Source: Oegoconia quadripuncta (Eukaryota; Arthropoda; Insecta; Lepidoptera; Autostichidae). From it: a stretch of 64,000 bases of DNA. The notes beneath the pieces were generated by a model. The model saw only the letters and a list, made by a program, of their open reading frames with translations. It did no database searches and was not told where the DNA came from. Of the stretch, positions 1 through 42,944 are shown piece by piece (within the stretch, counting starts at the first letter, position 1; every line of letters begins with the position of its first letter). Location: NCBI GenBank assembly GCA_949316235.1, contig OX438758.1:17517194-17581193 (forward strand), in the 5' to 3' direction. The translations under genes were made by a program, and so were the position numbers.

Positions 1-13
1 TACGGTAAATACC

Positions 14-622
14 TTGTCACAATTTGTGGAGAAACCCCTCCAGGAACATTGGCTTATGGTTAAACGATTATTGCGATATTTAAAAGGAACGTTACCTCAC
101 GGTATTTCATACCGAGATATAGAGGGTGATACAAATAGATTTGCTGCCTACAGTGATGCAGATTACGCTGGAGACACTATGTCACGACGCTCCACGTCTG
201 GATCAGTTTTCATCAGTGCAGGAGGTGCGATTATGTGGACTAGTAGAAAGCAGAGAAGTGTTAGTCTGTCTACCACAGAAGCTGAGTATATAGCGGCGAG
301 ACAAGCTGCACAAGATGTAGTCTGGTTGTCCAGACTAATTATGGAGATTACTGGGGAAGTCTTCCGCCCAACCCTGTTTGTACCCTGTTTGTCGATAACC
401 AGAGTGCAATAAAGCTGATAAAAACCCACAGTTTCACTACAAAACTAAACATATTGACACACGCTATAAGTTTGTCAGAGAACTATACTACGAAAATAAA
501 CTTTGTGTGGAGTATGTTCGTAGTAGTGAACAATATGCGGATATATTTACCAAGGTCCTCTCAAAGGATCGACTACAGGATCTCCAAAACGCTGTTGGGT
601 GTGTTTCCCAAGCGACTATCTA
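14..622 (+). pseudogene. Ty1/copia-type retrotransposon pol 3' end (RNase H), frameshifted
   Basis: The first open frame (14-412) holds the classic copia RNase H segment: a YSDADYAGD block with its catalytic aspartate near residue 48, an S-T-T-E-A-E-Y block with the catalytic glutamate near residue 89, then the WLSRL helix. The frame is broken where an 11-bp tandem duplication (371-381 and 382-392) shifts it, so the expected DNQSAI block continues in another frame. A second shift of one base lies near 419-424. The remaining C-terminal part (tract KHIDTR, then YADIFTK) ends at a TAA near 622. RNase H removes the RNA template during reverse transcription. The window begins inside the gene, so upstream protease, integrase and RT are not visible. 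The copia assignment is strong; the copy is dead at the protein level. Confidence 0.9.
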
Positions 623-722
623 ATTAGATGGAGTACAACGAGGTGTAGGGAGGGTATTGGAGATGAAACCTCTTACATACCTTATTTATTTATAGTTTTA
701 CTTTTCTTATTAGAAGCATAAA

Positions 723-974
723 ATTCATAATAATGTTATTCAGTTGAAGCAGAGTTCATTTATATCATTCATAATAATGCTATTCAGTTGAAGCAGAGTT
801 AATTTATAACATTCATAATAATGTTATTCAGTTGAAGCAGAGTTCATTTATATCATTCATAATAATGCTATTCAATTGAAGCTGAGTTAATTTATAATAT
901 TCATAATAATGTTATTCAGTTGAAGCAGAGTTCATTTATAACATTCATAATAATGCTATTCAGTTGAAGCAGAC
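723..974 (+). repeat. 44-bp tandem repeat, six units, in the probable copia 3' LTR
   Basis: Units start at 723, 767, 811, 855, 899 and 943, exactly 44 bp apart, each opening ATTCATAATAATG and continuing TTCAGTTGAAGCAGAGTT. Alternating variants (GTTATT/GCTATT and TTCATTTATAT/TTAATTTATAA) suggest growth as 88-bp pairs. The array lies about 80 bp past a plausible LTR start near 643 (TGTAGGGAGGG), just downstream of the pol stop. The LTR end is not identified. Confidence 0.85.
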
Positions 975-1163
975 TTGTTTTTTTAATATGACTCAATGTT
1001 TTCCTCGTAATTATATTTCATTATTATGACTATACTTTTAGGTTTTGATTTTGTATTCTCTAAAATAAGATAAATTTATTTGTCATTCAAAATTTTGCCT
1101 AATTATATCATACGTAATGTGTGTACATAATATTTAACTTGGTGAATTTGGAAATAATAGATA

Positions 1164-1650
1164 CTGGTTCCAACACTGACTTACGGGAGTGAATGCTGGG
1201 TATGGCAAAAGAAGAATGAAAGTAGAATAAATGTAGTGGAAATGAGATCATTGAGAAGTATGAATGGGGTGACTTTGAAAGATAGAGTCAGAAATAGTGT
1301 AATTAGCGAGTTAAGCAGTGTGAATGAAGACGTAGTGACAAAGATTGAAAAAGGTTTTGGACATGTGGAGAGGATGAATGAAAGAAGACTTACGAACGAG
1401 ATATACAAAGCGAATTTGGATGGTAGTGTTGGTAGGGGAAGACCACGGCGAACGTACCATGATCAAATCGGGGACGTCTTAAAGAAAGGCCAAGTCGAGA
1501 GTACCCTAAACCGACGAGCATGTATGAACAACCTTATGAGAGTGAAGGAAGCAGAAGAGGTGTGTCAGGATCGTAGCAAGTGGAAGTCTGTGGTCTCTGC
1601 CTACCCCTATGGGAAACAGGCGTGATATTATGTATGTATGTATGTATGAA
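1164..1650 (+). mobile_element. RTE-like LINE, 5'-truncated C-terminus plus TATG tail
   Basis: An open frame from about 1164 to 1624 encodes the last ~150 residues of a non-LTR reverse transcriptase: TLTYGSECW, a MRSLR block, [23 protein letters not shown] and a closing [16 protein letters not shown] before TGA. This order is typical of an RTE-like LINE family abundant in Lepidoptera. The stop is followed at once by a short TATG microsatellite (about 1629-1650), the usual way such elements end. The RT catalytic domain is missing, so the copy is dead on arrival. A 68-bp piece of the same end occurs at 11467. Confidence 0.85.
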
Positions 1651-2317
1651 AGAACGAGTGTATATACCAAAAAAGCCGATCGCATTTTTATTTTTTACCA
1701 TAAAAATCCTATGAGACTGCAGCGATCAAAACGAATCAAACGACACCATGCACTTCGACATCGGTCAAGCGGTTTAGGCTACAGGAGGTAATATAGAAAT
1801 CTACATACATACACTCGAAATACATTACCCTCCTTTGAGCAGTCGGGTAAAAAGCCTTAAAAGGCCTTGCTGATATGCCTTCTGTCTGGATTAATCCACG
1901 CTACGCCACTGTGGGCTGATCACAACAATTTTTTCTTCTGCAGGCTATATAATTCCACTACTAATCCTTCCCATCCTTTTTGGGTTTTACCCATTATCTT
2001 TTTGCAAAAAATTAGGAACAAATAATATCATTCGTAAAATCGTTTAGCAATGTTTTCTTTTTTCAGTGCAAAACATTTTCAATTTAACGGTAGCATCTAC
2101 ACGTTACCTCCACGGTGTAGCACAGGCGCCGAGGGAAGGCAATTTATCTTAATAAGCACCGGTCTCCGTATTAGAATTAATCAGGCGCGATGCATTAATC
2201 GCACCTTTTAATTTTACCTGAAGATTAAATGTGCAACCCATTTATAAAGAGACGATAAATGCTTTTTAATCTTTTTCCAATAGAATATTGGGTGGAGTTA
2301 TAATAATAGAATACATT
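1651..2317. other. No gene seen; degenerate interspersed repeat
   Basis: The segment 1671-1835 (CATCGGTCAAGCGGTTTAGG, then CATACATACACTCGAAA) resembles repeated sequence common in lepidopteran intergenic DNA, and related wording recurs near 59280-59330. No coding signal or RNA gene is seen in the rest. Confidence 0.3.
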
Positions 2318-2592
2318 ATCATCATCATCAATCCGTAAACATCCCACTGCAGGGATATAGACCTTCCCTCACATTGAAGGAGTATGGGCTGGCCGAATGC
2401 GGGTTGGTGACTTCACATTCTTCACCTTCGATTTTTTTTACATTTTCAAGCAAAAAGCAAATAAGAGCAATCGTATAAATGCACATAAATAAGTAAAATT
2501 TAAAACTCATTGGTGCGTGGCCTGTCTGGGAATCGAAACCGGACCTCCCAAATTGGGAGGCCGCGTCTTAACCGCTGAGCCACCGACGCTCT
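2318..2592 (-). mobile_element. tRNA-derived SINE, family A
   Basis: Read on the minus strand, the element begins at 2592 with GAGCGTCGGTGGCTCAGCGG, which contains an A-box-like Pol III promoter, followed by a degenerate B box (GGTTTCGATTCCC). The body carries the lepidopteran phrase 'CCCGCATTCGGCCAGCCC' in the opposite sense, and the element ends in a GAT-repeat tail at 2318-2331. A second copy lies at 14692-15012 in the other orientation. Confidence 0.8.
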
Positions 2593-2717
2593 ACAGACAC
2601 AGATGTACAGATTATAATAGAATACAATTACAAAAATAATAATAAAACTAACGTGTATGTATAATAAAAAGAACTAACACATTTGGTTGGTTAATTATTC
2701 TAAATATGATAACTTTG

Positions 2718-3036
2718 TTTTTTTTTTAACTTGACTTCAATCACACCTGATGTTAAGTGAAGATGAGGTCGAAGGTGGAGGCGTACTGACCCGGAAACCC
2801 TAACACATTTGGAGGACTGGATATCTTATCTCTGACAACCGGAACACAACAATGCTATTAACATTGTTGCTTGGCGGCAGATTTAGATAAGATGGTGGTA
2901 GCTAGCCAGGCGGACATTTTAAAATGCCCTACCACCAATCAAACCGAGTAGTTAAACATGTACCCCGCTGGCGAGAGAACCCACGACCTCCGAATCGTAA
3001 ACCCAATGTTATTTACATTGAGCCACGGAGGCGCTT
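2718..3036 (-). mobile_element. tRNA-derived SINE, family B (near full length)
   Basis: On the minus strand it starts with GCGCCTCCGTGGCTCAATGT (A-box region), passes GGAGGTCGTGGGTTCTC (mutated B box) and GGGTACATGTTTAACTACTC, and ends GATTGAAGTCAAG followed by poly-A (poly-T at 2718-2727). Better preserved B boxes (GGGTTCGATC) occur in the copies at 22.0 and 47.0 kb. Nine copies or fragments make this the commonest repeat here: 2.7, 12.5, 13.7, 22.0, 45.5, 47.0, 52.2, 56.4 and 58.3 kb. Confidence 0.85.
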
Positions 3037-3151
3037 AAAATTAATGTAGTTAAATTAATTTAGTAAATTTAAAAAGTTAAATTGGTAAATTAAGTTACTG
3101 TAAATCTAAAGTACTCGAAACCTTCGCTTAAACAAATTTATGAGTGAATGT

Positions 3152-3309
3152 TGTGGGAGGCGCTGGTTTTATAATTAAACCACATAAAATAATTTAGGAC
3201 TGTATATTGGTAATTAAATTGATAGGGTTACAGAGAGTTGCTTAGCCGATCGCGGCTGACGTGTGACTAAAGTACTTACTTATATGTAGGTATGTGCTTG
3301 TCTCGTACA
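3152..3309 (+). repeat. 158-bp interspersed repeat with TG...CA ends (solo-LTR-like), copy 1
   Basis: Runs from TGTGGGAGGCGCTGG to CTTGTCTCGTACA and is nearly identical, with the same length, to 11296-11453; similarity stops sharply at both ends. TG/CA termini and sharp boundaries suggest a short solo LTR. No clear target duplication is seen, so a MITE or other short element is not excluded. Confidence 0.6.
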
Positions 3310-5459
3310 TAATTGGGGACGGCAGAAAAAGATACATAAAATACAAACATATCTAAATTATACAATGTTATCTTATTTTTTAATTTTTTGAATAAATATA
3401 ACTTGAACAATATATACTGTTTCTATTCTCTTATTGTAATATCCCCACCTTTTTAAGTAACTGGATACAATAACGCACATACACATAAAATTTTAATCTG
3501 TATTACAAAGAACTGGAAGTAAATATTGTTATTTATTTTACTTATAATCCAACTGCATACTAAGTAACTGGATATAATGCAATGTAGGTACATATATTTT
3601 ATTATTTCACTAATTTTGTAGCTGTATTTCCAAGAATTGGAAATATATATTCTTACTTACTGACTTTTCTTAAAGCAACATCTATTAAAGGTAAGTGTTG
3701 AATTTTGAACCTTTCTGCTTGTCTAAACAGAATGTAGTTATGAATGTAATCCTATGAATCCAAAGAAGTTAGATGTTTATAATTAATTTGCATTGATACA
3801 TGAATCTTAGGAAGGTTACAGCGTAAAACATATTCTACAGTGATTTACTCATCTAGTGAAATCTAGTGAGGCCTAAACAAGCAGAAATGCCTTATTACAG
3901 AAATCATATAAATCAACAGCTATCTATATTATCTCATCTGTGAATTATAGAAAACAAATTTATACAGTTTATCAACACTGTTGCAATAATATCCAATACC
4001 TACTTACAAACTTATCTATACTTCTTTTACTTTCAAGTTTAGTTTTTTACATGCTAACCGTACAAGTGGTTTCTTTCTTTATTTATATTTATCTCTAATT
4101 GGTAAGTATAAAAAAGGGAAACAAGATGAGCATCAAATCAGACTTATTGTCTATATCTATTTGTTGCTAGCAATTACTTGAACACTAGGCAACAATAGGT
4201 TTAACAAACTTGAAAATAGAAGTTTGTGCCATACAAATAACAAGGTGCTAACCAGCTGTTAACCAAGTAATAACAACAGAAATTTTTAAAGTACAATAAT
4301 AGGATGTTTTGTGCCTTGCACTGTAATTGAACCTTATGAATAATACACCATATACACCATAAAAGGTACAATTTAAATCTAATTTAATGTAAGAAACATA
4401 ATTTTGACACCTGCGCCATTATAAATTTTATGAATAGTTACCACATTACAAGACTGGCTATCGTCGCACCAAGCGTTAGGATTTATGACTAAAAGCCTTA
4501 TATAATATTAAAACTAAATATGAAACGAAATGTCTCATAGTAAGAATCAATGTTGTAATAGCAAATTTAACTTTGAGGAGCCCTTACACATATTATATGA
4601 ATTGAAAGTTTGTTCATCATTTTTATTAGCCACGTAACACGGTTACCTTAAGAATCTCAGCTGAGATAGCAATGTCTGTATTTTACTAAGTGAATAATCT
4701 ATTAAGTATAAAAATTGTGGTTCGTTCCACTGTAACTCGTAATTTCAATTTACCTTCAAAAATTGATTTTATTCTGTGGGCTACTTAGACTGACTGAAAA
4801 CTTGACAGGTTCTACCTTTAGCCCGGTCACCATGAATTCAGAAAACAGATACAAGTGAATATTGACAGTGAAATCAAAACTCAAACCTTAACATTGCCAT
4901 CACTACCTATCAATATGTATGTAGGTATATAAATAACAGCTATAACCCTTATGAGATACACTGATAAACCTATTAAGTCAATAAGTATGGAATTGTGTGT
5001 GCTTATATTTTTATACTGTAATGGCATTAAATTTTAATAAACTGTAAAAAAATTGTTTGACACAACCATTTAATTCTAATGTCAGTGGGGAAAATCCCAT
5101 GAAATATTAGTTAACCAAGATTGTTGTATAATCATTCTTGCTACTACAACAATGGATCCTGTTGGATCAAACAATTGACTTACCTAAGTATAAATACTCA
5201 AAGATGCGTTTTGTTTAAGTTTCCAATACATATTGATATGGAAATTTTATATTTAAGGTGTAGATATGAACATTGTATTTAACACCTAAAGTTTTAACAC
5301 GAGAAATTTCATTTTCACACAAATCAATTTCCATTAGGTTTAGAGATATTTTTAATAGATTGTTATTATTGTTTGAACACCATCCATTGAGAAACATCAA
5401 GGTTTGACAACTCGATTAATTGTTTTTATTAAAAATAACATAAAACAATCCTTAATTCG
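3310..5459. other. AT-rich intergenic DNA, nothing recognised
   Basis: About 2.1 kb with only short ORFs and no RT, transposase or exon-like signal. Around 3455-3640 a weak pattern recurs (AAGTAACTGGATA at about 3454 and 3562), suggesting an old degenerate duplication. Confidence 0.5.
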
Positions 5460-5517
5460 GACAACTGGATCCATAAGTTGGATAGTAACCATACATAAGA
5501 GATTATTTATATTTCAT
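5460..5517 (+). repeat. 58-bp perfect direct repeat, left copy flanking the virus-like ORF
   Basis: Begins GACAACTGGATCC and ends ATTTATATTTCAT; identical over all 58 bp to 6836-6893. The two copies bracket the nucleoprotein-like frame and nothing else. This is long for a target-site duplication but has the right layout for one. Confidence 0.85.
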
Positions 5518-5561
5518 TTATATTTCAATATAATGCAAAAATTGACGGCATTGATATTACC

Positions 5562-6749
5562 GTGAAATCCGTTGTTGAAAAAATTAAAGCCCAAAAAATT
5601 CAGATAAATTTTCTAATCTGTACTCCAATAGTAGAACTAATAACATTGTTTAGGTCATTCTATGACGAAGTACGAACTGGAGTTACCAGATTTCGTGTAA
5701 GGGAATCAGTTGCCAGGAAAGGAGTTAAGAGGACAAAAGAAGGTAAATTGATTCCCACCACCAAACAATCTGAAAACACTCAAAACATATCACAGTATGG
5801 GTTAACAAACCAGCATATTGCCCTTTTACAAGGAGTGACTTTGGCTCCTGAGAGACGAACAGGGGTGTTAAGAAGTCTAGGTCCATTAACTCAGGCGATA
5901 TTGCTCATTATGGAAGACAAGTTTTTCGATAAATTGAAATCCGCTATGAGTAATAGTTTACAGATGTTGCCTATGGCTTCTGAAATTATTGCGTCATTCA
6001 AGGAAGCTAATCACCCCGGTAGTGTATCTGGCGTCATGAAGGAACTTGGAGATATATTACTGTTAACCACTTCAAGATCCACACAAAAGATTTACTTCCC
6101 ATTACTTCTTTTTTACAACTTTTGGCAAAGAAAAGGTGATTTGCAGTGGAGTTTCTCTGGAGCTCCCATGTTAAAGTTTTACACGGATTTTATTACAACT
6201 AATGATTTGAAGTTCAAAATGAGGAGCGGATCTGATATGCTCAAAACATCTGAGGTTGTATTCCATGCGATGTTTGGAACATATTTAGAGAATTTAAATG
6301 TTCTGGAAAAAATCACTAATAAAGCTAAATGGCACAATAGAAAGGAAGTAAATGCAGTGTTCCAAAAGCGGGGAGAAAAAGAACAAATAGTGTTCAGCCC
6401 CATCGTATTTAAGTATGTATCGAAGATGTCTCAAGCATTGTTGACTAAATCTCTTGGTAATATTGATCCTATGTCTATAAGTAGACCATCGTTCACTGGG
6501 TTTCGTAAAAGGACCTTTACTCAAGAATTCCTTACTTATATAACGACAGGGAAGAGTGCATTAAACTTCACGAGTGAGCCCACTCAATTGCAATACGCGC
6601 TTAAGAAATTAAAAGATGAATTGTTGAATGAAAAAGATAAATTGACAAATGTTGGAACTAATAAATGGGAGACTAAGACAAGTAGTGGTGAATGGGTAAA
6701 ATGTGACTTTGTTCCTGAAGAGGGGAATCTTTTCTTTTATGGTAATTAA
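5562..6749 (+). CDS. Endogenous viral element: probable orthomyxovirus-like nucleoprotein
   Basis: This is a single uninterrupted 395-residue frame, much longer than chance in such AT-rich DNA. The frame is open back to 5499, but no ATG opens it; the start given is a GTG, so the N-terminus is probably missing. Visible in order: a very basic segment (residues ~37-69), GLTNQHIALLQG (80-91), a hydrophobic helix (~108-117), EANHPGSVS (148-156), a leucine-rich stretch followed by IYFPLLLF (177-184), and a mixed-charge C-terminus ending in an acidic/aromatic tail. No signal peptide or membrane segment stands out. The order of the middle motifs and the overall size suggest to me an RNA-binding nucleoprotein of Orthomyxoviridae, perhaps the quaranjavirus/thogotovirus side; that family call is by eye. 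In a virus such a protein coats the genomic RNA. No intron or nearby host exon is seen. An open frame implies a recent insertion or retained function. Confidence 0.55.
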   Translation: MKSVVEKIKAQKIQINFLICTPIVELITLFRSFYDEVRTGVTRFRVRESVARKGVKRTKEGKLIPTTKQSENTQNISQYGLTNQHIALLQGVTLAPERRTGVLRSLGPLTQAILLIMEDKFFDKLKSAMSNSLQMLPMASEIIASFKEANHPGSVSGVMKELGDILLLTTSRSTQKIYFPLLLFYNFWQRKGDLQWSFSGAPMLKFYTDFITTNDLKFKMRSGSDMLKTSEVVFHAMFGTYLENLNVLEKITNKAKWHNRKEVNAVFQKRGEKEQIVFSPIVFKYVSKMSQALLTKSLGNIDPMSISRPSFTGFRKRTFTQEFLTYITTGKSALNFTSEPTQLQYALKKLKDELLNEKDKLTNVGTNKWETKTSSGEWVKCDFVPEEGNLFFYGN

Positions 6750-6835
6750 ATTTTGTTTACTGTATAATTATAATGTTTTTTATCTTTTGACTAATATTTT
6801 GTAATTTCCAATCTATAGTTTTGTGTCATTGTAAA

Positions 6836-6893
6836 GACAACTGGATCCATAAGTTGGATAGTAACCATACATAAGAGATTATTTATATTTCAT
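6836..6893 (+). repeat. 58-bp perfect direct repeat, right copy
   Basis: Identical to 5460-5517. It starts 87 bp after the stop of the virus-like ORF. No long poly-A precedes it. Confidence 0.85.
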
Positions 6894-8778
6894 GTAACAT
6901 ATTTATGTCGCCGTAAATGTAATCAACGTATGTATTACATAGTATAACAAAGACACCAAATGGATATTGATTTGTAGTAGTTAATAGCTAGCTCATAGAA
7001 AGAAGAAGAATTTGAGCTAAACCCTATTAATGGTTTTTAATTTGGATGAGCTGTACATCCGTTTGTGGACAGCTTCTCCATAAAATATTTTGTAATGTAC
7101 CATGAGATACATTTAGTTACCTTTATTTGTTAGATTTTTTTTGAATATCTTCTATAGTAAGATCTAATATATTTTTTGCAGATTGAATATTATGGAGAAT
7201 GTTAATTTATTTTTTGTACACATGGTCCATTCAGCAAAGTTTTACTATTTTTATTTATTACTGGGTGAAGTGGTAAAAAGTATACCTGACCATATCTATT
7301 TAATCATATGTCTAAACGCCTATATAAATCCCATGGCATAGTTTAATGTACTACCTCTTCTATAATACTTCTATATATTTGCAAAGGACTGGGATTAATT
7401 AAATATCTTATTGTGCAGGCATTGCAGGGCACATGAAAGTGAATCACCAATTCACATTTTTCAACTAGACTTACGTGACCACTGAAATTACTTGTATTAC
7501 AATGGCTATATTTATCTGCACACTGTATATTAACATCTGTAACATATTCAAACATGTATAACATAAATACAAGCCTCCAGAAGCAACAGTAGTTTGTTCA
7601 TACAATAAATTATTAAGGAACAAGTTCCAAGCCAAAGGTTGTCTAATTCTATTCTTTTAAATTCTTTGTCTGTTGATTTGACATCAGATGGAGGATGGAC
7701 CGTTCAACAATCGTTATTTCTCTGAAATTATAGTAAATTAGATTGTAATGTTTTCTACAACACAAGTTAATCTCATAGTATAGACATTTTTTGTTGAATG
7801 GACACGAAATTGTTTAAGTTTATTTGAACAATGACCAATGAACGGTGTTCACGGTTTGTTCACTGAACATTTTGCATTACCTTTTATCTGTTAAATCAAA
7901 CGATATTAAAAATTCGACTACCAGAGTCACAAAGAGACCAAGTATGTCATTTAACTACCTTGTTCATCAAACAATTTTACTTTTAGGTACAGTCGGAAGT
8001 GAAACATTATCGCACTTACTTATGGTTAACACTACCTGCTTCAATGCCTGTTGAACATTTTTCTGATGCAGGGGCATGTTTGGTCCTACTTCACAAAATA
8101 TTGCAGTTAAACATTTACCTGCATTTATTAGGATATTTATTTAAACATGTTTACACAATTTATTTGTTGTGCCAAATTCGACCCGCTAATAAAGTGAGAC
8201 TAACCTAAATTTATCACATTAGTGCAGCTGGTGGCTCAAAACATAAGTACACCTAAGTAGACTTTTCTGCTTACGGTGATAGTTACCAAGCTTCCATGAA
8301 CCACCCTTTTGGACCAGGCTGCCATGAGTGACAGTCTCGAGTACAGTTGCTCGCATTTCTAGAAATGTTAAAAACATGCATAAGCCAGACGAACTGCCAC
8401 TGAGTTTTATATGGAAGCATCTTGTTGATCGAGCAGTCATTACAATATAGGTACAAATTATAAATACATTCCAGGCTTTTACAGGGACCTTCATGCTTTG
8501 CAATGCATCTAAATGTTGTTTAGCTTTAGAAATAAATTCTGTGAAGGCATGAGCAGTGCATTTAGTGATTGGTTAAATTTCTAACAGAACATAAATTTGT
8601 AATAATTTTATTTTTATTAATATAGTGCTGTTTTAGTAGTTGGAGGGCTTAATAATAATTTTATGCTAAATGTTTTAATAAACCTGAGGCCTCTCCTTCT
8701 AAATAATGGAAATTATCACACTGTGATAACGTTACTTTTGTGGATTACACTTTGAAATAAGTGAATAATAGCCACCTA
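6894..8778. other. Downstream part of the minus-strand gene at 9 kb? Candidate exons only
   Basis: No repeat family is recognised. On the minus strand two stretches look exon-like: about 8515-8290, after an acceptor-like TGCCTTCACAG, where two overlapping frames are open (one with HLDALQSMKVPVKAW, one with NDCSINKMLPYKTQWQF); and about 7542-7345, after GTTACAG, a cysteine-rich frame with KYSHCNTSNFSGHVSL ending in TAA. Splice phases could not be joined with confidence to the exon at 8785. Confidence 0.25.
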
Positions 8779-8784
8779 CCTCAC

Positions 8785-9180
8785 CTGAGCACTTGTAATT
8801 ATATATTGGTGGTAAGCGCTGGAATCCTCCAGTCTGTTCAGTTTACAATACTCTGTGTATGGAACGAAGGCTAGACCGTGACCGGATTGGCCATTATTAC
8901 CTGAACTGTGACATAATACCTCTTCAAACTTTGCTGGTGTGAACATGTATTTTTTCTCCGTTATTGAGAAATCCTCTTTACTATCAGGATCTAAAACAAA
9001 AATGTTTACATGAACCTCGGCATAAAGCTGGAAGGAAGCCACCAAGCAATCTTTCTTCACTTTGAACTCACTATGCGTGGAGACCTTTAATTTGGCATCA
9101 GCTTCAAATAAATTATAAATACGTGCTAGGGTTCTTTCAGCCTGACCCCGGGCAAATACGATACTCTGAAGCTTAGGCAT
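8785..9180 (-). CDS. First coding exon of an unidentified host gene
   Basis: The frame starts with ATG at 9180 (protein begins MPKLQSIVFARGQAERT) and runs ~132 residues to a consensus donor, CAG|GTGAGG, at 8785/8784. A second good donor, GAG|GTAGGT, lies 5 bases further and would add two residues in another phase. The frame is also open upstream to 9333 with in-frame ATGs, so a longer start is possible. Composition is that of a soluble, mixed-charge protein: RTLARIYNLFEAD, KKDCLVASFQLYAEVHVNIF, then GHGLAFVPYTEY. No transposon similarity is seen, codon use is varied, and a CpG-rich patch lies just upstream, all favouring a host gene. I do not recognise the family; the strand pattern faintly recalls a MATH/TRAF-like beta-sandwich, too weak to assign. 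Confidence 0.45.
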
Positions 9181-9339
9181 TTTGCTTGGAAATATGCAAA
9201 GCCACACACAATGCTTAGTATCTAGGTATTCCATACACAAATATAATATTTTTCTAATGTAGGTAACTAATTTTCTAGGCACAACTTTCATACAAATTAC
9301 AATAACACAGTATAACACGCAACGCAGGTTCACTCCCTA

Positions 9340-9660
9340 TGAACTGTCTCACAAATGAATAAGATGGCGGCGAGTTCATGCAACACTGTGCAAGCGCACG
9401 TGGCCCAACAGCAAACTTAAAGTTGTCGATTCGCTGCAGTTCGCGATGTTTCGTAGACAAGTTGGCGTCCCGCTTGTACCCGCTGAATCTCGCGGCCGTC
9501 TCTGTTGTTCGGCATCGCCTAGTCTCGCCGGTATGTAGGCTGTCTCTATTGCTCCTGCTGCGGTCCGCTATATGGTACTCCTCGGTAGTTACTGTGAACC
9601 CCGAAGAATGTGTCTACGCAAAGTTATTTCGTGTAGTTGCGTAATTCTGCACCTTGAAAG
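9340..9660 (-). promoter_or_regulatory. CpG-rich putative promoter/5' UTR region
   Basis: This stretch is rich in CpG (for example GATGGCGGCGAG at 9364, CTCGCGGCCGTC near 9488, CTCGCCGG near 9525) against AT-rich surroundings. It sits directly upstream of the minus-strand exon at 9180. A 33-codon ORF begins at an ATG at 9377 on the minus strand and could act as an upstream ORF. No TATA box is evident. The plus-strand open frame 9378-9644 is probably a by-product of the base composition. Confidence 0.4.
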
Positions 9661-10256
9661 AAAGCACGGGGCACATGCTCAGGAATGCGCAAAATGAATG
9701 AACACATCAATGTCCCATATGAATGTCTTTAGCGACTATAAGTTTTTATTAATTATTCGTTGTTTTATACGTTTATTACTTTATTGCATTGATTAATTTA
9801 ATTATAATGTCCACCAATAATATTTATATAGAATAAGATTTTTTCACTCAGGCGTAGGTATATTAATTATTTATACGTGCAAACGTTTATGCACATAGTT
9901 AATGTCCACCAAATTATATTTTTTATCTTGCACTCGCGCGTGTAGTTTTAAGATGCAAACGTTTATGCACTTAATAGTTCCACATAATAAAGTTATTTGG
10001 CACTCACATAGGTACACTATATAGTTCCTTATGGAACATTTATCAGTCCGTATCACACAAAGTGCGACCCATTGATTGTTTATAGCAACAACACGAACTG
10101 TTCTTAATGGACAAGACGTTGGTATTTTAAAAATGACACCCATAGCAGCGTCTCTTTGTGGTAAGCGTACAGACTGAATTACCACAAAGTTTGATAAGCA
10201 CCCATAGCAGCGCAAATACCCTGTACAAAACAGTACGTCACTTTGTCTCTAATATA
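9661..10256. other. No gene supported; short direct repeats
   Basis: TGCAAACGTTTATGCAC occurs twice (about 9878 and 9953), as does CACCCATAGCAGCG (about 10137 and 10198), with an inverted TTTGTGGTAA/TTACCACAAA pair between the latter. A 114-codon minus-strand ORF (9871-10215) has no recognisable motif. Confidence 0.35.
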
Positions 10257-11107
10257 CAGGGCGTCCCAAAGTTATGGGACATGAAGGGGAAGTACCTTAA
10301 ATATCGTAGATAGTGAATTTTGCTCAAAGAAGACTTTATGTTATTTTTAAAAGTTAGTAATTCTGCATTCATAGATTTTCTAAAAATTATTTGCTTCGGC
10401 TGGGAATCGAACCGACTCAAATGTGAAAAAAAAAACACCCTACTTTTATGATGCCAATCGAAAGAATAGCTAAAAAATAATAACTCTGCCTAAGTAACAT
10501 AGTATTTTAAAAGAAAGGAACAACGTGAAATTAATCATTTTAATCAAATAAAAAACATACATGAAACTGCCGTAGTCAATTAAGTAGGTATTTTTTTGTA
10601 AATTAATTAATTAAATGCTCAAAATGTGATCCCTCTTGTCTTACGCAAATCGCCAATCTTTTAATGAGCCCGCTGCCTGTTGATTTTCTAATCATTTTAT
10701 GGTGAACACTCGATGTGATATGGCACAATTCTGTTTGCAACTCGCCTACGTTCTCGTATCGCTTTTTGTATAGCATATCTTTCACGTATCCCCAAAAGAA
10801 GAAATCTAATGGTGTGAGGTCCGGGGATCGTTATTTTATGTTGTTCCTTTCTTTTAAAATACTATGTTACTTAGGCAGAGTTATTATTTTTTAGCTATTC
10901 TTTCGATTGGCATCATAAAAGTAGGGTGTTTTTTTTTTCACATTTAAGTCGGTTCGATTCCCAGCCGAAGCAAGTAATTTTTAGAAAATCTATGAATGCA
11001 GAATTACTAACTTTTAAAAATAACATAAAGTCTTCTTTGAGCAAAATTCACTATCTACGATATTTAAGGTACTTCCCCTTCATGTCCCATAACTTTGGGA
11101 CGCCCTG
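10257..11107. mobile_element. Foldback TA transposon with 268-bp terminal inverted repeats
   Basis: The element is 851 bp, flanked by TA on both sides (10255-10256 and 11108-11109), starts CAGGGCGTCCCAAAG and ends with its reverse complement. The inverted arms are 10257-10524 and 10840-11107 and differ at only a few bases. The ~315-bp centre holds the last part of a transposase gene on the minus strand. Each arm carries a Pol III B-box-like GGTTCGATTCCCAGCC. TA flanks and the transposase motif place it in the Tc1/mariner superfamily; it is non-autonomous. Confidence 0.88.
10603..10827 (-). pseudogene. Transposase C-terminal remnant inside the foldback element
   Basis: The minus-strand frame reads SPDLTPLDFFFWGYVKDM, the signature around the third catalytic residue of a mariner/Tc-type DDE/D transposase, here ending in an aspartate-containing block, and continues through a helical tail to HFEHLIN and a stop at 10603. 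The frame is open for about 75 codons but lacks the first two catalytic aspartates and the DNA-binding domain. A nuclear cut-and-paste enzyme would be encoded by the full-length parent. Confidence 0.8.
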
Positions 11108-11295
11108 TATAACTTAAAGCTTGTGTGGATATAAATTATAAAAGTTCACTACACACACGGCGATACACTTGCTTAACACACGTGCTGACTGCAACAGCGC
11201 AAGATGGTGGAACTTAAAAATGAGCCACACGTACACACGACCAGCCTTACGAACCCCCTGGCCCTGATAAGTTACTTTTTCGAAGGACCAATTTA

Positions 11296-11453
11296 TGTGG
11301 GAGGCGCTGGTTTTATAATTAAACCACATAAAATAATTTAGGACTGTATATTGGTAATTAAATTGATAGGGTTACAGAGAGTTGCTTAGCCGATCGCGGC
11401 TGACGCGTGACTAAAATACTTACTTATATGTAGGTATGTGCTTGTCTCGTACA
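11296..11453 (+). repeat. 158-bp solo-LTR-like repeat, copy 2
   Basis: Same 158 bp as 3152-3309 with a handful of substitutions, same orientation, TG...CA ends. Flanks are AATTTA and AATGTA, with no clear target duplication. Confidence 0.6.
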
Positions 11454-24844: not shown

Positions 24845-26578
24845 TCATTTTACAAAAATGCGAAAACTTCGATGCTGTGACATCCAGTGCTTTGTGTAGC
24901 GACTGTCCAGCCTATCAGCAATGACTGCCAGGAGGCTGTTGGTGCTGCCGCGCAGCCTGTGCAGCGCCGCGGCAGCACGTGCGCGGAGCACGGCGTGAAA
25001 GCCATCTACTCGCGCGTCCGCGAACATGCCCGAGGCGCTACACCAGCGCGGCAGCCCCAGCAGCGCCCTGAATGCATTATTATATTGTACCCTGAGGGCG
25101 CTCAGCGATTTTTTCCAATAATCAGTCCACAGATTACAGGTGTATAAAGATGTGCAATAAGCTTTAAGTAAAGTAACTTTAACCTGCGCTGAGCAGTGTC
25201 TTAATCTGTGGATTATCATGTTAGCCCTAACCGCTAGCGCCCGGCGCTCCCTTTCCACATCGGCATCGTCCCTCAAATCCTCAGTCACAATGTGTCCTAA
25301 GTATTTGAAAGACGACACCCTGCTTAAGGGTGTATCATTCAACGTGATTACAGGTACATGAGGAAGGTATTTATTACAAGCTTTGAAAACCATAATTTCA
25401 CTTTTAGATGAATTGTATCTTAATCCATGTTTAGCAACATACTTTTCACATACCCCTATTAGCTTTCTCAGGCCACTAACCGATGGGCACAGCAACACCA
25501 TATCGTCCGCATAGCTTATGTTGTTAACACATACGTTGTCAATATAACAGCCGACATGCAGGCTGCTGAGCCCAGAGATTAGTTCATTGATATAGAGATT
25601 AAACAGGGTGGGGGAGGTAAGTCCTCCCTGTCTAACCCCACATTTTAAACCATAGACTTCCGATACTTCATTGTTCCATTTAACAACATTGGTTTGATTA
25701 GAATACCAGAACTTAAGTGTTAACAGTAAATCACTGGGAAATTGACAGTTCTCCAGCTTATCCCATAGCAGATCATATTGGACCAGATCAAAGTCCTTGC
25801 TGAGATCCAGGAAGCATGCATACACAGGAGTTTGCCTATTCGTATAATATTCTACAGTATGTTTCAAACATAGCACTGCACTTTCTGTAGAGAGGCCCGG
25901 CCTAAAGCCAAACTGTGCATCCTGTAGCTGAACATATTTACTTAATTCATTATTAATAAGACTGTCCAGAACTTTGGCTATTATAGTCGCTAAAGAAATA
26001 GGTCTGTAGTTAACCTTAGATGAGATGTCACCAGATTTATTTTTTATGATGGGTACGACTATAGTTTTAGTTAGACCAGCAGGGAGATATGAGTGGCTTA
26101 TACATATATTAAATAGTATATACAAAACTCTAGGCAGGTGAGGTCCAGCATGCAACAAGTGTTCGATGCTGAGACCATCATGGCCGGGTGATTTGCCTCT
26201 CTTCATCTGATTTATCACTTTTGTGATTTGCTTACTCGAGAATTTTGACTTATAATCACCATCCACAGAGGTTCCAGCACCGCACATCCGCATTGGCTGG
26301 CATGGCAATGGGCTAACTGTAAAATGGTCTTTAAATAATTCAGCAATGCCCTTAGCATCTGTCACTCCCTCTACGCTTACAGGCAGGCCCTGACGAGAGT
26401 TAAACCTGCTGGTACTTTTCCAGAAACTACGGAAGTCTTTTTTATCATGCTGTTCTGTAAAAATTTCCATTCTAATTTTTTCCTGATTTTGCTGGCACAA
26501 TTTCAACCTGGATTTAAACAGCCTTCGGGATGCACACATTTCATCATATACATATCCAGATGATGGCTTACCCAGCAT
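24845..26578 (-). CDS. LINE reverse transcriptase (CR1/L2-like), 5'-truncated, long open frame
   Basis: A 577-residue frame with no internal stop; coding similarity continues upstream to ~26635 (EAHRGARLGFQQW). In order: linker with FRSFWK (~residue 49), GKSPGHDGLSIEHL (~128), NYRPISLATI (~189), FGFRPGLSTESAV (~222), FLDLSKDFD (~260), GVRQGGLTSPTLFNLYI (~313), the catalytic ISYADDMVLL (~355) and FKYLGHIVTED (~427). The protein would copy LINE RNA at a nicked target in the nucleus. One oddity: the motif around the first catalytic aspartate reads SKDFD where SKAFD is usual. The endonuclease is absent. Downstream on the minus strand an AATAAA and a TTTTA-rich tail end the element near 24750. The bracketed element is ~24750-26640. 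Confidence 0.9.
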   Translation of the reverse strand: MLGKPSSGYVYDEMCASRRLFKSRLKLCQQNQEKIRMEIFTEQHDKKDFRSFWKSTSRFNSRQGLPVSVEGVTDAKGIAELFKDHFTVSPLPCQPMRMCGAGTSVDGDYKSKFSSKQITKVINQMKRGKSPGHDGLSIEHLLHAGPHLPRVLYILFNICISHSYLPAGLTKTIVVPIIKNKSGDISSKVNYRPISLATIIAKVLDSLINNELSKYVQLQDAQFGFRPGLSTESAVLCLKHTVEYYTNRQTPVYACFLDLSKDFDLVQYDLLWDKLENCQFPSDLLLTLKFWYSNQTNVVKWNNEVSEVYGLKCGVRQGGLTSPTLFNLYINELISGLSSLHVGCYIDNVCVNNISYADDMVLLCPSVSGLRKLIGVCEKYVAKHGLRYNSSKSEIMVFKACNKYLPHVPVITLNDTPLSRVSSFKYLGHIVTEDLRDDADVERERRALAVRANMIIHRLRHCSAQVKVTLLKAYCTSLYTCNLWTDYWKKSLSALRVQYNNAFRALLGLPRWCSASGMFADARVDGFHAVLRARAAAALHRLRGSTNSLLAVIADRLDSRYTKHWMSQHRSFRIFVK

Positions 26579-26640
26579 GACCCACTGCTGGAACCCAAGC
26601 CGGGCCCCCCTGTGAGCTTCGCTAACATGTTTTATGATAA

Positions 26641-27546
26641 TAAATTATAAAGGTGATTATTAGCTGATTTTATTCACCACGATAGAATCAAATTGAAGAC
26701 ATGCATGAACATCATCAATATTATTATTATTTCGTCAGAAAGAAGGTAAAGATATATACCTAGCGGTACCGATATTCTTCTATTAAAATCAAAGTTCTTC
26801 TTCATACTGTACAGTTTAATTTTAATAGAAGAACATGTCTAAGCGATGATAAAAATTAGAAGCCACAAATTAAATAGATTAACGAGAAAATAGACCGTCA
26901 TGGAAATATAGAAATAACAAAAGTATCACATAATTTTACAATATCATTTCAAAGGATTCGTCAAGAAAGCCATACGACAAGGAGCCATCCGAGCGCCAAA
27001 GTGAGCAACACCTACACGTAATTGACGGAACTCGAGACGAAGTTTCGTTATTTCTCACAGAAGTACAGGTATACTGTATGTCAAAGGGTTTTCTCTTTGA
27101 AAACGTTAATTATAAGACACTGAATACACGAAAGGGAAAACGAAAATCCTTGTAATGGGGCAATAACGCGTGACGCGAGACAACGCGACTTCGGGCAGGA
27201 AATTGGGGCACGTGACATGAGTACCGCGTACGTACCGAGCAGATACAAATCCCATGCCAAAACTCATTGAAAGCGCTATATTCAGCTTCTTTACAAAGAT
27301 GTCTTTATGGAAGACGTTATTTCTATTACCAGTGTCGTACCCGGATAAGAGTGTAGTTCCCGGCTAAGAAACACCCGTCCTTCGATGTCGTAAAAGGACA
27401 TTAAGGGATTCATAATGTATGCTTTTTTACTCCTTCTTATCACTTGTAATGTGATGCGCCCCTAACCACTGAGCTGTCTGGTAGTAGTACAATGAAGGCT
27501 TCATTTTCTATATTTTAAAATTAGTTATTTTGTATTAAAATTACAA
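26641..27546. other. No gene seen
   Basis: AT-rich spacer between the LINE and the Helitron. An inverted pair (TTCTTCTATTAAAATCAAAG near 26774 and TTTAATTTTAATAGAAGAAC near 26815) forms a small foldback. Confidence 0.4.
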
Positions 27547-28387
27547 TCTAAATATATAAAGGAAGAAACTGACTGACTGACTGACTGACATATCAACGCA
27601 CAGGCCAAACCGCTGGGTCTAGAGTTTCCAAATTTGGCACGTAGGTTCCTTACGAGGTCTAGGGGAGCACTAAGAAAGGATTTTTCAAAATTCACCCTTT
27701 AAGGGGGTGAAACAGGGGTGGGAAGTTTGTATGAAGAAACAGTATAACTTGGACATTTCGACTATTTTCGACTCGAAACTTCGCAAGAGTACTCCTAGGA
27801 ACAAATAAGCTAATACGTGTTTTGAGATTTTTCGAAAAACAACCCCCTGGGTTGTGAAATGGGGGTTAAAACCGTAAAATCGATATTGGTGTCGTTATTT
27901 AGGTTTTATGGGATGTTGATTTTGAAAATGACATTTATTTTAAGCCAACCCTCTAGGGGTGAGATAGGGGTGGGGGATGATACCAAAAAAGTCTATATTG
28001 GTGTCGTTATTTAGGTTTTTTGGGACGTTGATTGCGAAAATGACATTTATTTTGAAGCTAACCCCTTGGGGTTAGAGAATGCGATAAGGGTGAGTTGAGA
28101 TTTTTCGAAAAACAGCCCCCTGGGGTGTGGAATGGGGGTTGAAACCATAAAATCGATATTGGTGTCGTTATTTAGGTTTTTTGGGATGTTGATTATGAAA
28201 ATGACATTTATTTTAAGCCAACCCTCTAGGGGTGAGATAGAGGTGGGGGATGATACCAAAAAAGTCTATATTGGTGTCGTTATTTAGGTTTTTTGGGACG
28301 TTGATTGCGAAAAGGACATTTATTTTGAAGCTAACCCCTTACGGGTTGCGATAGTGGTAGGGGTTAAAATCACAAATTCAAATTGGT

Positions 28388-28795
28388 GTCGAAGTCGAAG
28401 AGTCAAAGTCGAAGAGTCAATGTCGAAGATTCAAATTCGAAATTCAAAGTCGAAGGCTCAAAGTCGAAGGCTCAAAGTCGAAGGCTCAAAGTCGAAGGCT
28501 CAAAGTCGAAGACTCAAAGTCGAAGGCTCAAAGTCGAAGGCTCAAAGTCGAAGACTCAAAGTCGAAGGCTCAAAGTCAAAGGCTCAAAGACGAAGGCTCA
28601 AAGACGAAGGCTCAAATTCGAAGGCTCAAAGTCGAAGGCTGAAAGTCTAAGGCTCAAAGTCGAAGGCTAAAAGTCGAAGACTCAAAGTCGAAGACTCAAA
28701 GTCGAAAGCTCAAAGTCGAAGGCTCAAAGTCGAAGGCTCAAAGACGAAGGCTCAAAGTCGAAGGCTCAAAGTCGAAGACTCAAAGTCGAAAAGTA
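28388..28795 (+). repeat. 14-bp satellite AAAGTCGAAGGCTC, block 1
   Basis: About 29 units of AAAGTCGAAGGCTC with variants (GACTC, GACGAAG, TTCGAAG). Because 14 is not a multiple of 3, all three frames cycle through similar lysine/serine/arginine-rich peptides; these are not genes. Confidence 0.95.
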
Positions 28796-29245
28796 AAATT
28801 CATAGTCAAGGTCATGTCAAAGTCATAGTCAAAATCATAGTCAAAGTCATAGTCATAGGCAAAGTCATAGTCAAAGTCATAGTCAAAGTCATAGTCAAAG
28901 TCATAGTCAAAGTCATAGTCAAAGTCATAGTCAAAGTCATAGTCAAAGTCATAGTCAAAGTCATAGTCAAAGTCATAGTCAAAGTCAAAGTCATAGTCAA
29001 AGTCATAGTCAAAGTCATAGTCAAAGTCATAGTCAAAGTCATAGTCAAAGTCATAGTCAAAGTCATAGTCAAAGTCATAGTCAAAGTCATAGTCAAAGTC
29101 ATAGTCAATGTCAAAGTCATAGTCAAAGTCATAGTCAAAGTCAAAGTCGTAGTCAATGTCATAGTCGAAGTCATAGTCAAAGTCATAGTTAAAGTTTTAG
29201 TCAAAGTCATAGTCATAGTCAAAGTCATAGTCATAGTCAAAGGGG
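28796..29245 (+). repeat. 12-bp satellite AAAGTCATAGTC, block 1
   Basis: About 37 units. A period of 12 keeps a frame open on the minus strand (Thr-Met-Thr-Leu repeats), which is an artefact. The border with the 14-bp block is abrupt and both share the root AAAGTC. Confidence 0.95.
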
Positions 29246-30016
29246 TGAATAGAATTTCCAAATTTGGCACGTAGGTTCCTTACGAGGTCTAGGGGAGCAA
29301 TAAGAAAGGATTTTTCAAAATTCACCCTTTAAGGGGGTGAAACAGGGGTGGGAAGTTTGTATGAAGAAACATATAACTTGGACATTTCGACTATTTTCGA
29401 CTCGAAACTTCGCAAGAGTACTCCTAGGAACAAATAAGCTAATACGTGTTTTGAGATTTTTCGAAAAACAACCCCCTGGGTTGTGAAATGGGGGTTAAAA
29501 CCGTAAAATCGATATTGGTGTCGTTATTTAGGTTTTATGGGATGTTGATTTTGAAAATGACATTTATTTTAAGCCAACCCTCTAGGGGTGAGATAGGGGT
29601 GGGGGATGATACCAAAAAAGTCTATATTGGTGTCGTTATTTAGGTTTTTTGGGACGTTGATTGCGAAAATGACATTTATTTTGAAGCTAACCCCTTGGGG
29701 TTAGAGAATGCGATAAGGGTGAGTTGAGATTTTTCGAAAAACAGCCCCCTGGGGTGTGGAATGGGGGTTGAAACCATAAAATCGATATTGGTGTCGTTAT
29801 TTAGGTTTTTTGGGATGTTGATTATGAAAATGACATTTATTTTAAGCCAACCCTCTAGGGGTGAGATAGAGGTGGGGGATGATACCAAAAAAGTCTATAT
29901 TGGTGTCGTTATTTAGGTTTTTTGGGACGTTGATTGCGAAAATGACATTTATTTTGAAGCTAACCCCTTACGGGTTGCGATAGTGGTAGGGGTTAAAATC
30001 ACAAATTCAAATTGGT

Positions 30017-30412
30017 GTCGAAGTCGAAGAGTCAAAGTCGAAGAGTCAATGTCGAAGATTCAAATTCGAAATTCAAAGTCGAAGGCTCAAAGTCGAAGGC
30101 TCAAATTCGAAGGCTCAAAGTCGAAGGCTCAAAGTCGAAGACTCAAAGTCGAAGGCTCAAAGTCAAAGGCTCAAAGACGAAGGCTCAAATTCGAAGGCTC
30201 AAAGTCGAAGGCTGAAAGTCTAAGGCTCAAAGTCGAAGGCTAAAAGTCGAAGACTCAAAGTCGAAGACTCAAAGTCGAAAGCTCAAAGTCGAAGGCTCAA
30301 AGTCGAAGGCTTAAAATCGAAGGCTCAAAGACGAAGGCTCAAAGTCGAAGGCTCAAAGTCGAAGGCTCAAAGTCGAAGACTCAAAGTCGAAGACTCAAAG
30401 TCGAAAAGTAAA
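30017..30412 (+). repeat. 14-bp satellite, block 2
   Basis: Same repeat as 28388-28795, with shared variant units in the same order (for example the AAAGTCTAAGG unit), confirming duplication of the whole block. Some units are missing and others added. Confidence 0.95.
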
Positions 30413-30985
30413 ATTCATAGTCAAAGTCATGTCAAAGTCATAGTCAAAATCATAGTCAAAGTCATAGTCATAGGCAAAGTCATAGTCAAAGTCATAGTCA
30501 AAGTCATAGTCAAAGTCATAGTCAAAGTCATAGTCAAAGTCATAGTCAAAGTCATAGTCAAAGTCATAGTCAAAGTCATAGTCAAAGTCATAGTCAAAGT
30601 CATAGTCAAAGTCATAGTCAAAGTCATAGTCAAAGTCATAGTCAAAGTCATAGTCAAAGTCATAGTCAAAGTCATAGTCAAAGTCATAGTCAAAGTCATA
30701 GTCAAAGTCATAGTCAAAGTCATAGTCAAAGTCATAGTCAAAGTCATAGTCAAAGTCATAGTCAAAGTCATAGTCAAAGTCATAGTCAAAGTCATAGTCA
30801 AAGTCATAGTCAAAGTCATAGTCAAAGTCATAGTCAAAGTCATAGTCAATGTCAAAGTCATAGTCATAGTCAAAGTCATAGTCATAGTCATAGTCAAAGT
30901 CAAAGTCGTAGTCAATGTCATAGTCGAAGTCATAGTCAAAGTCATAGTTAAAGTTTTAGTCAAAGTCATAGTCATAGTCAAAGGG
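30413..30985 (+). repeat. 12-bp satellite, block 2 (longer)
   Basis: About 47 units, some ten more than block 1, the extra ones being perfectly homogeneous. The end variants (AAAGTCGTAGTCAATGTC, AGTTAAAGTTTTAG) match those of block 1, so growth happened inside the array. Confidence 0.95.
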
Positions 30986-31464
30986 GTGAATAGAATTTCC
31001 AAATTTGGCACGTAGGTTCCTTACGAGGTCTAGGGGAGCAATAAGAAAGGATTTTTCAAAATTCACCCTTTAAGGGGGTGAAACAGGAGTGGGAAGTTTG
31101 TATGAAGAAACAGTATAACTTGGACATTTCGACTATTTTCGAATCGAAACTTCGCAAGAGTACTCCTAGGAACAAATAAGCTAATACGTGTTTTGAGATT
31201 TTTCGAATTCAACCCCCTGGGTTGTGAAATGGGGGTTAAAACCATAAAATCGATATTGGTGTCGTTATTTCGGTTTTATGGGATGATGATTATGAAAATG
31301 ACATTTATTTTAAGTTAACCCTTTAGGGTTGAGATAGGGGTGGGGGTTGATACCAAAAAAGTCAATATTGGTGTCATTATTTAGGTTTTTTGGGACGTTG
31401 ATTACGAAAATGCCATTTATTTTGAAGCTAACCCCTTGGGGTTAGAGAATGAGATAAGGGTGAG

Positions 31465-41830: not shown

Positions 41831-42944
41831 TCAATAGCGTAACGGGCCACCTTCACGATCAATAACTTGCTGCAAGCGGCCTCTCATTTCGGTAACCATT
41901 GTCCAACAAACATCTTTACCACGTAATGACTCCCATGTGGAAGTCACTAGATTATCTAGATTTGATCTAGATCTGACATCAGATGAGTCCCAATTGAGAG
42001 TCATCAAACCCCATAAATTTTCAATGGGGTTTAAATCGGGACTTTTGGCAGGCCAATTGATAACTGTGATATTATTCTGTGTTGAGAACCAATCACGCAC
42101 AATACCAGCGCGATGCACTGCACAGTTATCTTGGACAAAATAAATGTGTTCGTTCGGATAGTGGATGCGCACAGTTGGTAACATTACGTCACGTAAAACT
42201 TCTAAATATGATTCACTATTGAAACGACCACCCACTTCAATTAATTCACCAGGTCCCATGGAACTCATCCACCCCCAATATCCCAACGTTATTCTACCAC
42301 TTAGTCTATTTGGCAGAATGTTAATTTCATTATAACGCCCTCCTCTTCGACGCCATAAAATCTTGCGGCCGTCCTTATCTGATCTAAACGTTTTCTCGTC
42401 CGTGAAAATAACAACGTTGTTTTGCCAGTCAAAATCTAAATATTCTTGAGCAAACCTCATTCGATTTTGGCGGTGATTGGATGACAAAGGAATTTTCCTT
42501 GCTGGTCGATACGGTTTAAAGCCTGCGATGTGTAAGTGTTTCCTTACAGTCTTCATTGCTATTCCGTGCAATACAGCAGTTGATCGCGTTGTCGAAAATG
42601 GATCCTCAGTATGCCTAGCCACGATCTCCTGGTGACGAATAGAAGCTGACGTAAACATTTTCGGAGCTCGGCCGGGACGTTCACGCTGCAAGTCCCCTGT
42701 TTCGCCATAGCGTTTAAGCCATAACTTTACCGTATTTCTCTGTGAACAATTAATAAACTGACTATAAGATCGATCACAGCAATACTTAGATTTATCATTT
42801 ACCTATGCAACAAAGATTATAGTAAATGTGAAATTATGTGTTTGTTACCGTTATATGGAGGCTTCTTGCAATTTCACTGATGGAAACATTTTGTTCATAT
42901 AAAACAATTATTTTTGATTTTAGTAAATCCGTTAATTGAGGCAT
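41831..42944 (-). CDS. Tc1-like transposase, two exons, apparently intact
   Basis: Exon 1 is 42849-42944 (ATG at 42944; 32 codons), intron 42740-42848 (109 nt, donor GTAAC, acceptor TTCACAG, phase 0), exon 2 is 41831-42739 (302 codons plus stop). The total of 334 residues is normal for a Tc1 transposase. The N-terminal helix-turn-helix spans the splice (SISEIARSLHIT joined to RNTVKLWLKRYG), which supports the intron; without it the DNA-binding domain would be cut off. The basic linker GRAPKM and the catalytic triad follow: FTDEKTF, YFVQDNCAVH and SPDLNPIENLW, with 35 residues between the second Asp and the Glu (DD35E; classical Tc1 has 34). The enzyme would bind the 29-bp ends and move the element by cut and paste into TA. 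No stop or frameshift is seen. Confidence 0.92.

Follow-up and report, generated by a model that had tools for sequence, protein, structure and literature searches.

A 5′-truncated orthomyxovirus nucleoprotein-like insert between 58-bp direct repeats in the lepidopteran Oegoconia quadripuncta, and its empty site on a second chromosome

RESULTS

Open frame, flanking repeats, and junctions

The window analyzed here is the 64,000-nucleotide stretch at positions 17,517,194-17,581,193 of contig C17 in the 622.6-Mb, 45-contig genome of Oegoconia quadripuncta; coordinates given without a contig name are window positions. The program-made list of open reading frames contains an uninterrupted forward-strand frame at 5499-6749, which comprises 416 codons plus a stop. 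A preliminary description of this DNA had correctly reported the frame as open but had counted 417 codons, and had not noted that its start lies within one of two flanking repeats. Codons 1 to 6 and one base of codon 7 fall inside the left repeat, and the first six codons are therefore host DNA. The earliest ATG is codon 138, at 5910, with none in codons 1 to 137, and the longest ATG-started part of the frame covers 5910-6749 (+; 279 aa).

The two repeats, at 5460-5517 and 6836-6893 (both + and both host DNA), are identical at 58 of 58 bp, as described previously, and their identity extends on neither side; the 61 nt at 98% reported by the repeat tool correspond to the 58 bp plus one mismatch and two matching bases. 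Within the window, a 26-nt probe from the repeat (up to 3 mismatches) found only these two positions, with 0 hits in 100 shuffles. The pair was also the longest of 9 isolated repeat pairs listed for 134 kb of two chromosomes in a survey of exact pairs of at least 20 bp spaced 200 to 8000 bp apart, from which co-linear duplicates had been filtered out.

Between the repeats lies an insert of 1318 bp (5518-6835, +), which holds 409 open codons. The longest frame among 2000 first-order Markov sequences simulated with the insert's composition was 191 codons, so the observed frame is far longer than expected by chance. The 5′ junction is marked by an exact 11-bp tandem duplication of TTTATATTTCA (5506-5527, +), with copies at 5506-5516 and 5517-5527. 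No other 11-bp tandem duplication occurs in 3152-8204, and one more, at 371, was found in window positions 1 to 11000; the first-order Markov expectation is 0.005 per 5 kb. We read the duplication as filler or junction slippage. At the other end, 86 nt follow the stop codon (6750-6835, +), ending in AAA, with a right edge set by the repeat, and this stretch is presumably viral 3′ untranslated sequence. A poly(A) or simple-repeat tail was not found at the 3′ end of the insert, where the last bases are GTAAA.

Identity of the encoded protein

Based on sequence relatives and fold comparisons, the frame very probably represents the C-terminal ∼82% of an orthomyxovirus nucleoprotein (NP), and the 1318-bp insert an endogenous viral element (EVE). 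Two unnamed 494-aa proteins, each from a ∼1.6-kb contig, have 82% identity to the window frame. By structure, the window protein best matches the NP of Coleopteran orthomyxo-related virus OKIAV200, with E = 4e-35 and 46% of 421 columns identical, and the NP of Hubei orthomyxo-like virus 2 shares 24% identity with the window protein (both from Foldseek alignments). The Flu_NP family (PF00506) matched 4 of 21 family members, with a best E value of 1.8e-4; a Pfam search of the window protein itself returned no family, Flu_NP included. When a profile of the relatives was compared with the PDB, orthomyxovirus NPs occupied the first four of five rows, at E values of 0.057 to 0.15 that are not significant alone. 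Foldseek searches with the predicted model listed orthomyxovirus NP or RNP entries in 50 of 50 PDB rows and 41 of 41 VIA rows. These fold matches are read at the family level only, because the model has a moderate mean pLDDT of 62 and most of the PDB rows have an rmsd near 10 Å. The sequence relatives, the Flu_NP matches, the profile-PDB rows, and the fold searches all support the orthomyxovirus-like NP that had been suggested from motif order.

The top phmmer match among 15 PDB sequences at E ≤ 10, an ascorbate peroxidase (E = 0.01), was rejected as a chance hit, being absent from the profile-PDB listing of the relatives. Among 15 pattern matches on IMG/VR viral contigs, none was a relative of the window protein, and Rfam gave no match in the window at gathering scores.

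Alignment of the window frame with the full-length relative P0001 (494 residues) begins at residue ∼86-89 and continues through the C terminus, where both proteins stop together. Homology to NP begins at ∼5520-5529, and the coding remnant at 5529-6749 (+) corresponds to P0001 residues ∼89 to 494 (the end), stop included, with no disabling lesion. By this alignment the N-terminal ∼85-88 of 494 NP residues are missing, since the viral part begins where the left repeat ends. Given the absent N terminus and the lack of ATG in the first 137 codons, the insert is the remnant of an NP gene and not a working viral one. The source is best explained as an orthomyxovirus of the insect lineage that includes OKIAV200, a virus placed in clade O7 with Dipteran OKIAV199 and Hubei orthomyxo-like virus 2 by Kaefer et al. 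(2019; PMC6932829). The OKIAV200 NP comes from a transcriptome virus, whereas the window copy lacks the N-terminal ∼85-88 residues and resides in host DNA.

An empty site on a second chromosome

Querying the genome with the left flank gave four rows: the locus itself, the right 58-bp copy, a match on C12 (83%, 75 bp), and C1:34717629-34717946 (99% over the whole query). The C1 locus aligns to the window as far as 5520 and then again from 6836; it carries the 58-bp sequence once, letter for letter (C1:34717889-34717946), and lacks the insert. Of the 15 bases beside the 58 bp, those on the left show a single difference between C1 and the window, and those on the right show no difference. Because C1 has the 58 bp once without the insert, the repeats are a real target-site duplication, in agreement with the preliminary description, which had looked to sister species for an empty site with one 58-bp copy. 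The empty site is instead present in the same genome, as a paralogue rather than an allele, and its boundaries agree with the repeats.

The paralogy reaches well beyond the repeats. The host segment at 3152-8204 (+), minus the insert, has a second copy at C1:34715597-34719261 (3665 bp). The shared sequence ends sharply on both chromosomes, and its alignment contains 8 gaps and, over 3659 aligned bases, 31 mismatches (98-99% identity). A MITE bounded by the short inverted repeat at 5319-5339 and 6955-6975 was considered as the insertion target and rejected, as the duplicated unit is the larger 3152-8204. The first 158 bp of the segment recur at 11296-11453, and by eye we saw no target duplication of the segment's own at either 3152-8204 or C1:34715597-34719261. 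The 3.7-kb segment may be a non-autonomous mobile element.

This arrangement makes an assembly chimera, or a fusion of contaminating viral sequence with host DNA, extremely unlikely: an exact host duplication brackets the insert, which a random join would not yield, and the insert lies inside a 20.6-Mb contig, contiguous with host DNA whose flanks are also present on another chromosome. Alternatively, the C1 copy may formerly have carried the insert, which recombination between the 58-bp repeats then removed, in which case the insertion may predate the segment duplication. Recombination of perfect direct repeats can leave exactly one copy, as this history needs, but it requires one additional event, and the short branch and absence of lesions described below point to youth regardless. 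We therefore consider prior loss from C1 very unlikely and take that copy as the site before insertion.

Age of the insertion and state of the frame

If a Heliconius mutation rate of 2.9e-9 per base and generation is assumed, the 31 differences in 3659 bases correspond to ∼1.5 million generations since the segment duplication, and the insertion, if later than that duplication, falls within roughly the last 1.5 million generations. Divergence is unequal between the flanks (left, 10/2366; right, 21/1311; p = 4e-4), and the date may therefore be skewed by gene conversion. Identity of the repeats by itself permits up to ∼8.9 million generations. In a neutral frame of this length, the mean wait for a disabling lesion is 1.4 to 3.0 million generations, calculated with an assumed mutation rate and assumed indel shares of 0.15 to 0.05. 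In a protein tree of 37 proteins and four pieces of the O. quadripuncta genome, where forks around the insert are weakly supported, the terminal branch of the insert is 0.068, compared with 0.12 to 0.45 for the other ten rows of its clade. The segment divergence and the neutral lesion wait thus bear out the young event proposed earlier.

The preliminary description had also argued that an open frame without ATG implies recency, selection, or translation from a fused start. That argument finds no support in this form, since the start codon is missing because the insert is 5′ truncated, and a young neutral insert would be expected to show such a frame. Its youth is enough to account for the absence of lesions: the neutral lesion wait is about equal to or above the upper age of ∼1.5 million generations, so an intact frame is no evidence of function, and selection was set aside as an unneeded cause. 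If the host had nonetheless adopted the truncated NP, as an antiviral protein or in some other capacity, selection might hold the frame open, and several features would accord with such co-option: the 409 open codons, retention of all 49 columns that are invariant among the other family members, and NP-like proteins on record from four named lepidopteran species. However, the open frame is expected without selection at this age, the first 137 codons lack an ATG, and the insert deviates at 4 of the 86 columns that are at least 90% conserved in the others (range among the other 20 rows, 0 to 14). We regard co-option as very unlikely, and most likely the insert has no present role.

Other NP-like loci in the genome

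A search of the host's own genome gave 10 rows at E ≤ 10; beyond the window, five rows at E ≤ 1e-3 represent four loci. One is a broken element ∼72 kb upstream of the insert (C17:17450704-17451056; 52/46% identity, two stops). By eye, this piece adjoins a reverse-transcriptase-like piece. Such clustering could mark a piRNA cluster. Two near-identical loci on C20, C20:45224341-45225132 and C20:46368948-46369559, lie 1.1 Mb apart, share 31% identity with the window's sequence, and have no stops in the matching part; their open stretches span 314 and 204 codons, respectively. The fourth locus, at 13.23 Mb on C20, has 29% identity and one stop. In the protein tree described above, which covers these loci except the last, the C17 piece and the C20 pair occupy branches separate from that of the insert, and NP-like sequences thus probably entered the lineage more than once; the C20 pair has a very long branch, for which the program issues a warning. 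Around the other NP-like loci we found no convincing pair of target duplications, the best exact pairs being at most 16 bp.

Other features of the window

Two ∼1.6-kb blocks at 27620-31112, each consisting of an array with a 14-bp-based unit followed by an array with a 12-bp unit (AGTCAAAGTCAT), are open in several frames on both strands; these simple-repeat frames are probably not genes. Repeats at 10250-11118 and at C1:34695369-34697499 and C1:34709763-34710626 are 98-100% identical between the two chromosomes; with inverted ends of ∼280 bp, they resemble a DNA transposon that was active recently. At 41834-42802 (−), a 323-codon open frame encodes a Tc3-like transposase (DDE_3, HTH_Tnp_Tc3_2) that is possibly recent.

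DISCUSSION

Route of insertion

The route that we favor as probable is one in which a host LINE reverse-transcribed viral RNA and inserted the copy. A LINE reverse transcriptase would have nicked the target, copied the viral (+) RNA starting at its 3′ end, and halted after ∼1.3 kb, leaving a 5′-truncated copy. The cDNA would have been joined to a second nick 58 bp away, producing the 58-bp duplication, and slippage at the joining step would have left the 11-bp duplication. The 5′ truncation, the duplicated target, and the slippage at the junction are consistent with a LINE acting by target-primed reverse transcription. Among the LINE hallmarks tallied at the insert, a target-site duplication is present (58 bp) and 5′ truncation is seen, and 6835 may be the true 3′ end of the viral RNA. 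Because the 3′ tail is missing, we do not claim LINE membership, only that the insertion works like the LINE mode. The window itself contains two frames with reverse-transcriptase domains, one with LINE-like relatives. For the reverse-transcriptase frame at 24848-26644, 623 relatives were found at E ≤ 1e-50, and among the 120 listed, every species-named one belongs to Lepidoptera (e.g., Cydia, Plutella, Mythimna, Spodoptera, and Bombyx).

The absent tail and the length of the duplication speak against a LINE. A poly(A) or simple-repeat tail is an L1-type trait, and some LINE clades do without it. With respect to length, an RTE insertion in a bird has a 13-bp duplication (PMC4844689). The main rival, which concerns the route only, is DNA repair: a double-strand break with ends staggered by 58 nt would have taken up viral cDNA made by some reverse transcriptase, and filling in the ends would give the repeats. 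We consider this less likely than the LINE route. Break repair would account for the missing poly(A) tail, the templated-looking 11-bp filler at one junction, and a duplication exceeding the usual LINE length. It would also match earlier insect EVEs without LINE hallmarks; Katzourakis and Gifford (2010; PMC2987831) stated that no insect EVE showed apparent target-site duplications or poly(A). Against break repair, exceptionally long target-site duplications have been reported for a LINE, R9 of rotifers. Moreover, 5′ truncation, an intact 3′ coding part, and two exact repeats together make up the usual picture of a LINE insertion.

Extending the LINE route, Lepidoptera might possess LINE machinery with a target stagger of ∼60 bp that copies viral RNA without poly(A), an idea we advance as speculative and rather doubtful. 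If true, such a route would evade EVE surveys that seek short duplications and poly(A), and it would account for insect EVEs that seem to lack the marks of retrotransposition.

Relation to known insertions

Orthomyxovirus EVEs are already known, and what is distinctive here is the unusually complete junction evidence. Such elements have been reported in ticks (PMC2987831), Photinus fireflies (PMC6191289), and Catajapyx (PMC6955108), which like the window insert are orthomyxovirus genes in arthropod genomes; the element from Catajapyx is a PB1 copy and the tree given for ticks shows GP, whereas the window insert is NP. The EVE type described in advance as rare is therefore only partly so, given its presence in ticks, fireflies, and basal hexapods and the four other NP-like loci in this genome. 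Unlike the insect EVEs of the 2010 survey, the insert has a 58-bp duplication that can be set against an empty site. Host-gene retrocopies with signs of LINE action have been described in Spodoptera frugiperda (PMC13251582) and share with the insert the character of lepidopteran retro-insertions with target-site duplications. Those retrocopies derive from host mRNAs and were sought with minimum lengths of ≥20 bp for poly(A) and ≥5 bp for the duplications, whereas the insert derives from viral RNA without poly(A).

The insert adds a young case to an orthomyxovirus lineage with NP-like proteins from at least four moth and butterfly species. How integrase-less RNA viruses come to enter the germ lines of insects is often inferred with no evidence from the junctions. 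Here a single genome contains the occupied site, the two copies of the duplicated target, and the empty site, which allows a base-by-base reading of the event and an upper limit on its age.
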